Source: Halorarum halophilum
GTDB lineage: Archaea > Halobacteriota > Halobacteria > Halobacteriales > Haloferacaceae
Direction: 5' to 3'
NCBI RefSeq assembly: GCF_013401515.1
Contig: NZ_CP058529.1
Coordinates: forward strand, 2,790,001-2,854,000
DNA length: 64,000 nt
Part shown: one piece after another, positions 51,906 to 55,378 of the stretch
How the letters are laid out: each line of letters starts with the position of its first letter
Position numbering within the stretch: the first letter of the stretch is position 1
Program-made: the position numbers and the translations under genes
The notes under the pieces: generated by a model
Told to the model about the DNA's origin: nothing
The model's database searches: none
Seen by the model: the letters and a program-made list of their open reading frames with translations, nothing else

Positions 51906-52337
51906 CTACCTGGCGGCAAGTTCGGCGGCCAGCGTCCGGGCGCCCACGTAGCGAATCCGGCGCTCGACGGGGAACCAGAGGCTCCCCAGCGCCGCCCCGA
52001 GCGCGTTCGCGAGCAGGTCGCCCCAGCCAAAGTAGCGGTGGGGCGTTGCTCCCTGGAGGAGTTCGATACCCGCACCGAACGCGAGAGCACCGCCGATGAC
52101 GAGGGCGACGCGTCGAGACGGGTGCTCCCGCAGGTTCGCCGTCGCATAGGCCAGCACGAGCGCGAACCCCGCGTAGGCCGCGAAGTGGAGGCGCTTGTCC
52201 CAGAACGGCGTCGGTGACGGCGGCTCCGGGGGGACGGTGACGAGCGAGAAGTAGCAGATGACGCCGGCGACTCCCAAGACGCCGAGCCAGCGAAGTGACC
52301 GGGGGAGGAGGGGGAACCTGACCCGGTCCATCCTCAC
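51906..52337 (-). CDS. VanZ family membrane protein
   Basis: The protein has 143 residues with about four helices. VanZ-like features are FWDKRLHFAAYAGFALVLAYA, a central block with charges, and GIELLQGATPHRYFGWGDLLANALGAALG. The role of VanZ domains is not settled, though glycopeptide resistance is one known case. GTG at 52337 overlaps the stop of the STT3-like gene (GTGA), so they are coupled; an ATG at 52331 is also possible. The coupling may tie it to glycan transfer or surface assembly. Confidence 0.82.
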   Translation of the reverse strand: MRMDRVRFPLLPRSLRWLGVLGVAGVICYFSLVTVPPEPPSPTPFWDKRLHFAAYAGFALVLAYATANLREHPSRRVALVIGGALAFGAGIELLQGATPHRYFGWGDLLANALGAALGSLWFPVERRIRYVGARTLAAELAAR

Positions 52338-54685
52338 GCCGACCCCGTAGCGGTCACGTTCGCCCCGTTCCGGACCGCGGATTCGGGGACGGTGATCGTG
52401 GTCCCGTCGCTCCCGTTACTCCCCGCGACCTGGTACTCCCCCGGGTGGGCGACGCGGACGCTGTACGCGCCGTCCGCGCCGGCGGTCGTCTCCCGGACGT
52501 AGGTGAACGAAGCGCCCTCGACGTCGACCTCCGTCCCCAGTGTGACGGTCGCGTTCGGCTCCGCCTGCCCCTCGACGACCGCGCCGGGGACGAGCGCGAA
52601 GGTCTTGTACTCGCCGTCGGCCGTCGCGTGGACGAGCCGGTAGTGGGCGAGCGCGGGCGAGTCGGCGGTCCGGTTGCCGTTGTGCCGGTGGAGTCTGGTG
52701 CCGAGGTTCGATTCGTTTCCGCCAACGACGATCGGCGTTGTGACGACGAATCCAGCACGGCCACTCAGTCGGTCGTACCACGCCTGCGCATCTTGCGAGC
52801 TGATGAACTGGACGTAATTACTTTGCGCATAGCCGTACGAGCGCGACTCGCCGTTCACGAAGTAGTTGTACATTCTGTTCTCCGGCCAGAAGCTGAACAC
52901 GTAGTTCTCCGGGTACTCCATCTCGCGGTCGTCGCTGTGCTCGGCCATCCAGGTCGCCGTTTCGTACTGACCGTCGGGGACGGTCAGTTGGCTCGTCTTC
53001 ACCGGCACCTGGAAGATACTCACGCTCGTCACGAACAGAAAGAGGATAACGACCGCCATGAGCGGCTCCCGATCTGGAATCCGCACGTCCGGAACGGGGT
53101 CGTCACTGAAGGGTGCTGGTGAGCGAGCACAGTCGAACTTCTCCGTGAGATGAACGAACCCGGTCGCAGCGAAGACGACGACCGTCGGTGAGAGCTCACC
53201 GACGAATCGGACCTGGATGGCGGCGAGCACGAGGAAGTACCAGGCGTACACCGTCGGAACCAGCCAGCGTTCATCGTCGAGTGCTAGTCGAACGCCCCAC
53301 GCCATGTACGGGAGCGCGAGAACAAGGATCAACCCGATCAGCAGTAACCAGCCGAACGACTGTCCGAACAGGCCCTGCATTTCGGCGATCGCACGATCGG
53401 CGAACAAACGATCGGACAGGCTCGTGGTGAGTCGTGTCCAGTACTCCGGCCGGACCGTGGCGAGCAGGACGGCGCCGACGACGAGCCCTCCTCCTTCGAC
53501 ACCGGCGAGTACCGTGGCGGGCTGGTCGAACCGATGCGCCAGTTCGCCGACGAGGAGGACGCCGACACCGCCGATGAGTACGAGCGCGGGCGCAGTGGCG
53601 ACGAGCGTCGAATGCCATCCGAACACGGAGTGGCCAGCCCACGCGATAGTGGCGCCGATCCCCGTCCCAAGCAGGACCGGCCCGCTTGTCGGGAGCGGCG
53701 AGTCGCCGGCGTGAACCGCCCGGAGGGCGTCGGTCGCGAGATAGAGGCCGAGTGGTACGAGCAGCAGTGGGCTCGCGTCCCATGCGAGCGTCTGCGCGCC
53801 GGTGCCGATACCGATGGCGAGCGTCGCGGCGATCGTCTTCCACGTGAGCGTGGGAATGGGTCGGCGGGTGATCGTCCTGCCGGGGGCGGTTCGGCGTGCT
53901 TCTGCGGCAATGACAGCGATGCCGAGGACCGTCAGCGCCAGCCACGGGTAATCGAATGCGTGGTGGTCGGCGAAACCTAGGCTCGTCCGATATGCGTGCG
54001 CCGGGATGACTGCGAGCATGGCGACGGCGGCGAGCGCTATCCGGCGGTCGTCAGTGACCGTCTTCGTGAGGACGTACACGAGGACCGCTGTGATGACAGC
54101 CGAGACGACGGGGTACCAGGCGAGGACGTGGCCGGCGACCTCCGTGGTGCCGCCGAGCACGACCGTGACGAGCCAGAGTGCGGCGACGAGGAGCGGTTCC
54201 CCCTTCGCGATGCCGCCGGGGATCGTCGAGAGCGTCGTCCCGGGGTCCGCGAGCATCGTCTCCACCCAGTAGCGGTAGAAGTACGGGTCGTTCGCGGAGA
54301 GGACGACGTGCTCGCCGCGGTACACCGTCGGGAACGGGAACATGCGGAACGCGACGACGAGCAGCAACGCGCCGAGGAGGAGGGCGAGTTCGAAACGGTC
54401 GATCTGCGGGAGCGAGACGTCGAGGTCCGACGTGGATCGCTCGTCGGCGGCCGGTGCCGGCGCTTCACCGTCGAGCGCAGTTCGTACGGCCGCCCGGTCG
54501 GCGACGCGGTACTCCTCGCCGTCGCGTTCGACGACGCCGTGCGAGACGAGTTCGCCGAACGCTCCCGAGTCGACGTCGACGTCCTCGAACGCCCAGGGGT
54601 CCTCGGGTTCGAGGACGGTCTCCACGGCCGGTTCGAGGTCCGGCCGCTCGTCGAGGAGGTCGCGGACGGCCCGGGCGGTAACCAT
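52334..54685 (-). CDS. STT3/AglB-like membrane glycosyltransferase with extra domains
   Basis: The protein has 783 residues. Residues 1-75 are a helical, winged-helix-like domain (VTARAVRDLLDERPDLEPAV, then GELVSHGVVERDGEEYRVAD). About 12 membrane helices follow, with the STT3 loop SANDPYFYRYW near 130-140 and a DHH motif in LGFADHHAFDYPW near 237-248. The soluble part after about residue 550 lacks the catalytic-binding WWDYG motif: the matching place reads FSFWPENRMYNYF. The end has a small Ig/carboxypeptidase-regulatory-like domain (VPGAVVEGQAEPNATVTLG, then TAGADGAYSVRVAHPGEYQV). It may be a diverged oligosaccharyltransferase or a different polyprenyl-sugar transferase. It lies next to a pilin gene and is coupled to VanZ. 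Confidence 0.82.
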   Translation of the reverse strand: MVTARAVRDLLDERPDLEPAVETVLEPEDPWAFEDVDVDSGAFGELVSHGVVERDGEEYRVADRAAVRTALDGEAPAPAADERSTSDLDVSLPQIDRFELALLLGALLLVVAFRMFPFPTVYRGEHVVLSANDPYFYRYWVETMLADPGTTLSTIPGGIAKGEPLLVAALWLVTVVLGGTTEVAGHVLAWYPVVSAVITAVLVYVLTKTVTDDRRIALAAVAMLAVIPAHAYRTSLGFADHHAFDYPWLALTVLGIAVIAAEARRTAPGRTITRRPIPTLTWKTIAATLAIGIGTGAQTLAWDASPLLLVPLGLYLATDALRAVHAGDSPLPTSGPVLLGTGIGATIAWAGHSVFGWHSTLVATAPALVLIGGVGVLLVGELAHRFDQPATVLAGVEGGGLVVGAVLLATVRPEYWTRLTTSLSDRLFADRAIAEMQGLFGQSFGWLLLIGLILVLALPYMAWGVRLALDDERWLVPTVYAWYFLVLAAIQVRFVGELSPTVVVFAATGFVHLTEKFDCARSPAPFSDDPVPDVRIPDREPLMAVVILFLFVTSVSIFQVPVKTSQLTVPDGQYETATWMAEHSDDREMEYPENYVFSFWPENRMYNYFVNGESRSYGYAQSNYVQFISSQDAQAWYDRLSGRAGFVVTTPIVVGGNESNLGTRLHRHNGNRTADSPALAHYRLVHATADGEYKTFALVPGAVVEGQAEPNATVTLGTEVDVEGASFTYVRETTAGADGAYSVRVAHPGEYQVAGSNGSDGTTITVPESAVRNGANVTATGSA

Positions 54686-54925: not shown

Positions 54926-55378
54926 ATGCAATTCAAGCAACTGTTCAAAGACGAACGTGCTGTCAGTCCGGTCATCGGGGTTATTCTGATGGTGGCAATC
55001 ACTGTGATCCTCGCGGCCGTCATCGGGACGTTCGTGCTCGGTCTCGGGAACAACCTACAGCAGACCGCACCCAATGCGAACTTCGACTTCGACTACTCGT
55101 CGGCAGGGAACTCTCCAACGAACCCCTACAGGGTGGACGCGACCCATGAAGGTGGCGCGACCATTGACGAGGACAACGCTGACTCGCTTGAACTGGTCGC
55201 AGAGAGTGGACAATCTGTTGAATTCCCTTCAACCGTGAGTTCGGGCACGACTGCATCTCTCAATAACCTGGGGGGAACCGACAATTCCGTTCCAGCTAGT
55301 ACCACGGTCCGTGTAATCTGGACCGCTCACGACGGCGGCAACTCTCAGAGCCTCGCTGAGGGCAAGACTCCGAGCTAA
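54926..55378 (+). CDS. Type IV pilin-like protein
   Basis: The protein has 150 residues. A short basic leader ([20 protein letters not shown]) is followed by the pilin helix [21 protein letters not shown]. The ERAVSPV site is the usual archaeal prepilin (PibD) processing point, followed by the DUF1628-type N-terminus. The remaining 105 residues ([20 protein letters not shown] and onward) are an Asp/Ser/Thr-rich globular tail exposed outside. It has no clear N-x-S/T glycosylation site. A CCTTTATTTCC box near 54830 would give a leader of roughly 70 bases. Confidence 0.9.

Follow-up and report, generated by a model that had tools for sequence, protein, structure and literature searches.

A wide family of AglB paralogues in Halobacteria without the WWDYG acceptor motif

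The window analysed here (the whole stretch of 64,000 nucleotides, positions 2,790,001 to 2,854,000 of contig NZ_CP058529.1 of Halorarum halophilum) carries a gene for a paralogue of the oligosaccharyltransferase AglB in which the WWDYG motif of the acceptor site is replaced by a different conserved motif. The gene is a member of a wide family of AglB paralogues in Halobacteria, and the loss of the acceptor motif is fixed in at least 100 genes of this family. We favour the reading that the paralogue would be a second oligosaccharyltransferase-type enzyme, which moves a glycan from lipid pyrophosphate to a surface protein and is free of the N-x-S/T sequon. Drawn from sequences and a predicted structure, this reading stands in our judgement about midway between doubt and acceptance.

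Fold, catalytic motifs and the WWDYG position

A first-pass annotation, made from the DNA letters, had placed an STT3-like protein at 52334-54685, and the gene indeed occupies these coordinates, on the minus strand. The features of the gene are listed below, with conservation counted in an alignment of 117 paralogue rows, at least four of which are the same gene fetched twice (near-zero branches in the tree), and 13 haloarchaeal AglBs.

52334..54685, minus strand: AglB/STT3 paralogue of 783 amino acids, a glycosyltransferase-C (GT-C) transferase without WWDYG, identified by Pfam, predicted structure and fold matches
54461..54685, minus strand: N-terminal winged-helix-like domain, residues 1-75, common to the haloarchaeal EMC3/TMCO1-like insertase and absent from AglB
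54275..54292, minus strand: N132-D133-P-Y-F-Y, residues 132-137, first catalytic acidic motif, in external loop 1 (EL1); N and D in 117/117 rows
53960..53968, minus strand: D240-H241-H242, residues 240-242, EL2 motif; D or E followed by H in 117/117 rows, the third H in 92
53381..53383, minus strand: E435, TIXE-type glutamate of EL5; E in 115/117 rows
53207..53209, minus strand: R493 (QVRF), common to AglB and the paralogues; R in 117/117 rows
52844..52894, minus strand: S598-F-W-P-E-N-R-M-Y-N-Y-F-V-N-G-E-S614, family motif in place of WWDYG and the stretch that follows it
52355..52585, minus strand: AglB_L1 (PF18079) C-terminal domain, residues 701-777, earlier called an Ig-like tail; in 36/37 family members

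Two Pfam models matched the protein above cut-off, STT3 (PF02516, residues 121-261) and AglB_L1 (residues 701-777), and the sole NCBIfam match was TIGR04154 (haloarchaeal AglB) at 159.8 bits, below the cut-off of 450. An AlphaFold2 model built with 37 family members (predicted local distance difference test score (pLDDT) 91; predicted template modelling score (pTM) 0.84) has the AglB fold, a GT-C fold with an STT3-type membrane part and a C-terminal globular domain, in keeping with the first-pass assignment. The best solved match was A. fulgidus AglB (Foldseek E 8e-24), to which the VIA fold match extended over model residues 101-781 (Z 34.6, 596 residues, 19 % identity), and over 155 residues the part 618-781 fitted 3WAI, a structure of the C-terminal domain of AglB by itself, at 2.2 A. 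Since the tail matches both AglB_L1 (above the Pfam cut-off) and 3WAI, it is AglB's own, and we rejected the view that an Ig-like domain had been added at this end. One relative of STT3 whose acceptor is not a sequon is DPY19, which uses dolichyl-phosphate-mannose as donor and Trp as acceptor. The structures of this C-mannosyltransferase (7ZLG/7ZLH/7ZLI) have a related GT-C fold and matched the model more weakly than AglB did (Z 22.9-23.6).

The NDPYFY and DHH motifs noticed earlier are both present, and at the D240 position D is found in 104 and E in 13 of the rows, followed by H241 in 117/117. Profile-profile alignment with the 13 AglBs (probability 100, E 4e-38) placed F599-W600-P601-E602-N603 opposite W-W-D-Y-G, so that the FWPEN-like reading of this position was borne out. 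Nor did the motif turn up elsewhere in the protein: while all 13 AglBs have WWDYG, WWD occurs nowhere in the paralogue or in the 117 rows. At this position the family has the motif S-x-W-G-x-N-R-x-Y-N-Y-F-V. A loose pattern, W[GSPDWA]x[NSQ]RxxN, fits 113/117 rows, with W600 kept as W in 114, R604 as R in 116 and N607 as N in all 117, and the P601 position being mostly G (87). At the DK/MI site the AglB row reads MVDWEMV and the paralogue GFVVTTPIVV, in a part of the alignment that is gapped.

According to PMC8342417, the Ser/Thr of the sequon fits into a pocket made of WWDYG and DK/MI; for the Asn amide, the proposal is that acidic residues belonging to the first DXD and to TIXE twist and activate it. 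Since the catalytic residues are conserved and WWDYG is gone, it appears that the chemistry has been kept and the +2 reader lost. The first-pass annotation had inferred from the changed motif that the acceptor is other than an N-x-S/T sequon, or that the enzyme passes the glycan to something else. The motif loss itself held, and because it is fixed throughout the family together with a new conserved motif, a non-N-x-S/T acceptor would be its simplest reading.

Distribution of the family and its association with PF02397

In a protein search of 391 Halobacteria genomes, 326 matched at E 1e-5 or better. The best E values per genome formed two groups, separated by a gap between 2e-29 and 2e-15, and the stronger group, counted by hand, placed the paralogue in 215/391 sampled genomes; AglB (TIGR04154) is in 384/391. 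In a phylum sample of 294 genomes, the family profile matched in 30, every one the source genome itself or a genome of the same genus, family or order, and the family was not found outside Halobacteria in this sample. The best 80 of the 135 relatives found in a named scan include Halobacterium salinarum DSM 3754 (whose copy matches TIGR04154 at 141.1 bits), Haloarcula, Halorubrum, Natrinema and Halobaculum, and none from Haloferax. The family was undescribed in the publications that our literature search found, the AglB-evolution survey of Nikolayev 2020 lying outside that scope. Besides the paralogue, the source genome (4.28 Mb, 4 contigs) contains a single STT3 gene, at C1:82269. It encodes AglB (1121 amino acids; domains STT3, AglB core and AglB_L1) and is the only TIGR04154 match of the genome at E 1e-100 or better; a true AglB is thus present elsewhere in the genome, a point that the first-pass annotation had raised.

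In the tree, all 13 AglBs fell on one side of a fully supported branch and the paralogues separately from them. The paralogue is like AglB (3WAJ/7E9S; TIGR04154) in its fold over residues 101-781, the EL1 Asp, the EL2 D-H, the TIXE Glu, the Arg and AglB_L1. It is unlike AglB in having no WWDYG, a new S-x-W-G-x-N-R-x-Y-N motif, an extra N-terminal domain, a score below the TIGR04154 cut-off, a separate tree branch, and PF02397 nearby (none at the AglB loci examined).

Two side observations concern the tree and AglB itself. A single branch of 25/117 rows has EL2 D-H-H replaced by (E/D)-H-(R/Q/N/P), that is E-H-R, D-H-Q, D-H-N or D-H-P, and includes L149, L152, L157, L159, L160, L162, L164, L165, L168-L170, L172, L175, L177 and L180. 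Six genomes of one genus (g71; G204, G214, G215, G234, G326 and G328) have, in place of one long TIGR04154 match, two matches (E about 1e-128 to 1e-137), which would fit an AglB that is split or interrupted there.

We surveyed the neighbours of 65 named paralogue loci of at least 20 kb, out of 80 taken, together with 19 AglB loci (one of 20 was dropped as short) and 20 random loci. A polyprenyl-phosphate sugar transferase of PF02397, the initiator of pyrophosphate-linked glycans, was found within 10 kb of 30/65 paralogues, 0/19 AglBs and 0/20 random loci. The neighbour queries were drawn from the paralogue loci, a possible bias of which a whole-genome Pfam search is free, and this search found PF02397 in 74/80 paralogue-positive versus 14/80 negative genomes (p 2e-23). 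Among the 26 sampled genera with both states, PF02397 was present in 37/42 positives versus 0/46 negatives, with 25 genera in agreement and one tied; thus relatedness does not explain the co-occurrence, which we take as the strongest clue to the role of the paralogue. In the 59 positive genomes in which both genes could be placed, they are at most 10 kb apart in 34 and at most 50 kb apart in 52. Haloferax volcanii, taken as a control, gave no PF02397 match. When 21 negative genomes, including 14 with PF02397, were searched with a profile, no hidden divergent paralogue was found; the matches were just to frames of about 900-1270 amino acids (taken for AglB) and to the insertase front described below. 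It could be argued from the score of 159.8 bits, far below the AglB cut-off, that the gene is a copy of AglB that has degenerated or become inactive. We regard this as very improbable, because the catalytic residues are kept in 115-117 of 117 rows, new near-invariant positions are present, and gain and loss of the gene track those of another gene, PF02397.

Other recurrent neighbours of the 65 loci are epimerases (37), UDP-glucose dehydrogenase (25), nucleotidyl transferase (24) and DUF4330 (10). In the source genome the PF02397 gene lies beyond the window, 42 kb past the paralogue, and shares a cluster with a Wzx-type flippase, a Wzy_C protein, five glycosyltransferase family 4 (GT4) matches, an epimerase and UDP-glucose dehydrogenase. 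Farther along, two nucleotidyl transferases and GlmS directly precede an S-layer-like protein of 729 amino acids with halo_sig_pep and PGF-CTERM.

These neighbours and co-occurring genes belong to a Wzx/Wzy-type polysaccharide pathway, and the chief alternative is that the paralogue serves as ligase or polymerase in the making of an exopolysaccharide or glycolipid, like WaaL/Wzy; its acceptor would then be a sugar chain or else a lipid of the membrane, and no protein. PglL/WaaL-type ligases transfer lipid-pyrophosphate-linked glycans and, as Wzy_C proteins (PF04932), may be functional analogues of the paralogue; Pfam gave no PF04932 match in the paralogue or in the 37 family members scanned. 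The loss of WWDYG, which serves peptide recognition, would fit such a role, and so would the 42/80 positive genomes without a recognisable Wzy_C, in which the paralogue could fill it. Where PF02397 is present and the paralogue absent, most genomes have Wzy_C (11/14, often several: G043, G044, G047, G073, G075, G129, G130, G157, G183, G277 and G325), as if a Wzy_C ligase could take the place of the paralogue there. On the other hand, the whole AglB architecture is kept, including the soluble C-terminal domain and the TIXE Glu, and 38/80 positive genomes, the source genome among them, have a separate Wzy_C (versus 12/80 negatives), a co-occurrence by which a ligase cannot be told from a polymerase. 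The insertase-type front, which points to secreted proteins, and the S-layer genes beside the paralogue in several genera also speak against this alternative. Together, these points make the ligase or polymerase explanation unlikely, although it deserves to be taken seriously.

The N-terminal domain, the S-layer and the possible acceptor

The front of about 75 residues, which the first-pass annotation had called winged-helix-like, is predicted as a winged helix in the model. Its PDB fold matches were weak (best E 0.2) and were largely winged-helix proteins, many of MarR type. The domain holds some of the strongest invariants of the family, D-S-G-x-F-G-E. The first 118 positions of the family profile matched frames of 301-353 amino acids in 16/21 genomes searched. 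We read eight such loci and scanned four of them with Pfam, and found that all four proteins are EMC3/TMCO1-like insertases of YidC/Oxa1 type (PF01956, E 4e-39 to 5e-49), with no Pfam model above cut-off over the N-terminal domain in these four:

L301:262-1173, minus strand: EMC3/TMCO1-like insertase with the same front
L302:324-1268, minus strand: EMC3/TMCO1-like insertase with the same front
L303:201-1103, plus strand: EMC3/TMCO1-like insertase with the same front
L307:154-1176, plus strand: EMC3/TMCO1-like insertase with the same front

Between the two fronts, BLASTP found 40 % identity over 75 residues (E 4e-13) and hhalign an alignment of probability 98.4 (E 5e-15); the remainder of the insertase is an unrelated membrane insertase. 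By these comparisons the winged-helix front is homologous to the insertase N-terminal domain and new to AglB, which suggests docking of the paralogue near the site of protein export.

A second line of evidence on the acceptor comes from H. salinarum, in which the paralogue was seen in one strain, DSM 3754 (L181). Its S-layer glycoprotein (TIGR04216, 1181 bits) is followed by an unknown protein, an ABC ATPase and a permease-like frame, the paralogue, a GlmS-like frame, two GlmU-like proteins and a PF02397-type transferase, the permease and GlmS names being based on reading of the frames and on neighbour matches. Past the signal peptide, this S-layer protein begins with A-N-A-D; thus Asn-2 is present and lies outside any N-x-S/T sequon. 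The H. salinarum S-layer carries a repeat glycan on Asn-2, which is described as linked through N-acetylgalactosamine (GalNAc), derived from dolichyl pyrophosphate and bacitracin-sensitive in the parts of three papers that deal with it (PMC2952790, PMC8674786, PMC6591318), and it tolerates exchange of the sequon Ser-4 according to the corresponding part of PMC2952790. This 2010 review states that the tolerance has no suitable explanation, and the 2019 paper leaves open which enzyme handles it and whether AglB does (PMC6591318).

In other genomes the link to the S-layer was looser. Of the 16 positive genomes that hold TIGR04216, four (G018, G353, G173 and G322) have such a gene no more than 5 kb from the paralogue, and seven have one at up to 50 kb. 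TIGR04216 itself is present in 16/80 positive versus 8/80 negative genomes, which is not decisive, and in the genus of H. salinarum it is present in 4/4 positives versus 0/6 negatives. S-layer N-termini were judged by eye with an A-x-A rule, after 8/33 positive and 2/15 negative rows were left out as partial, weak or at a contig end, and the natural Asn-2 sites outside the sequon read NAD, NEV, NER and NTN. As a general target of the family, Asn-2 of S-layer proteins is weakly supported, at 8/25 positive versus 0/13 negative proteins.

Could the paralogue still be an N-x-S/T oligosaccharyltransferase, specialised for pyrophosphate donors, in which R604, N607 and their neighbours form a new +2 reader? 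The near-invariance of W600, R604 and N607 (114, 116 and 117 of 117) argues for some specific acceptor contact, and ordinary sequons do occur among the Asn-2 sites. However, the pocket residues D, Y and G are all lost, the four natural sites given above are not sequons, and the exchange of Ser-4 is tolerated in H. salinarum as reported in that part of PMC2952790. We therefore consider a retained sequon requirement improbable.

Returning to the favoured reading of a second, sequon-free oligosaccharyltransferase, we propose that the PF02397 transferase would start a glycan on lipid pyrophosphate, which would be built and then flipped, and that the paralogue would pass it from its lipid carrier to a protein outside the cell, for which the S-layer or some other glycoprotein of the surface is the likeliest candidate. 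The acceptor would probably still be an Asn side chain; since the pocket for the +2 Ser/Thr is gone, this Asn need not sit in N-x-S/T. The winged-helix front would probably dock the enzyme where proteins leave the cell. In our judgement the donor is very likely a lipid pyrophosphate, as the co-occurrence with PF02397 suggests. The acceptor is probably a protein, as the AglB fold with its C-terminal domain, the insertase-shared front and the S-layer genes within 5 kb (4/16) suggest, a glycan or lipid acceptor being possible instead. Independence of N-x-S/T is somewhat probable. That S-layer Asn-2 is the target in H. salinarum is a tentative proposal, and still more tentative is the combined one, that a sequon-independent transferase using lipid-pyrophosphate donors at the site of protein export is the enzyme for the GalNAc-linked repeat polysaccharide of Asn-2 in this species. 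If true, it would explain both the exchangeable sequon Ser and the A-N-A-D of the type strain. With a widespread, pocket-less and initiator-coupled AglB relative beside the S-layer gene of this species, the question of the Asn-2 enzyme becomes directly testable, and glycan engineering would gain a useful tool in a transferase that is naturally free of the sequon.

Several observations weigh against the favoured reading. The part of the 2010 review that treats H. salinarum reports one oligosaccharyltransferase gene (PMC2952790), a count in which, we infer, a paralogue without the motif may have been missed. Asn at mature position 2 is enriched weakly (p 0.034), and two of the eight sites are ordinary sequons. 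One Trp of WWDYG, W600, is still there, and another pocket may replace the old one. PF02397 is missing in 6/80 positive genomes and present in 14/80 negatives, and the same gene clusters could make exopolysaccharide. Finally, PGF-CTERM surface proteins lie near 9/65 paralogues versus 1/19 AglBs and 1/20 random loci; because this enrichment is not significant, we rejected them as general neighbours.

Flanking genes and recurrent small neighbours

Two genes flank the paralogue in the window:

51906..52337, minus strand: VanZ-family membrane protein, whose start codon overlaps the paralogue stop by 4 bases
54926-55378, plus strand: pilin gene

The coupling to VanZ noted in the first pass was confirmed by the overlap and recurs in the family, with VanZ near 15/65 named paralogue loci versus 0/19 AglB and 0/20 random loci. 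VanZ genes were seen near the paralogue in L103, L105, L111, L121, L125, L126, L136, L138, L139, L144, L161, L173, L174 and L182, and their recurrence there, in varied order and orientation, points to some kind of functional link. The pilin gene does adjoin the paralogue here, as had been said, but it is no conserved neighbour: a pilin lies within 10 kb in just 1/65 named loci, and we rejected it as a partner or target. A DUF4330 protein and an unnamed protein of 155-240 amino acids form a recurrent pair beside the paralogue or its glycan cluster, as at L267:11341-12937 and also in L034, L035, L036, L041, L045, L059 and L062.

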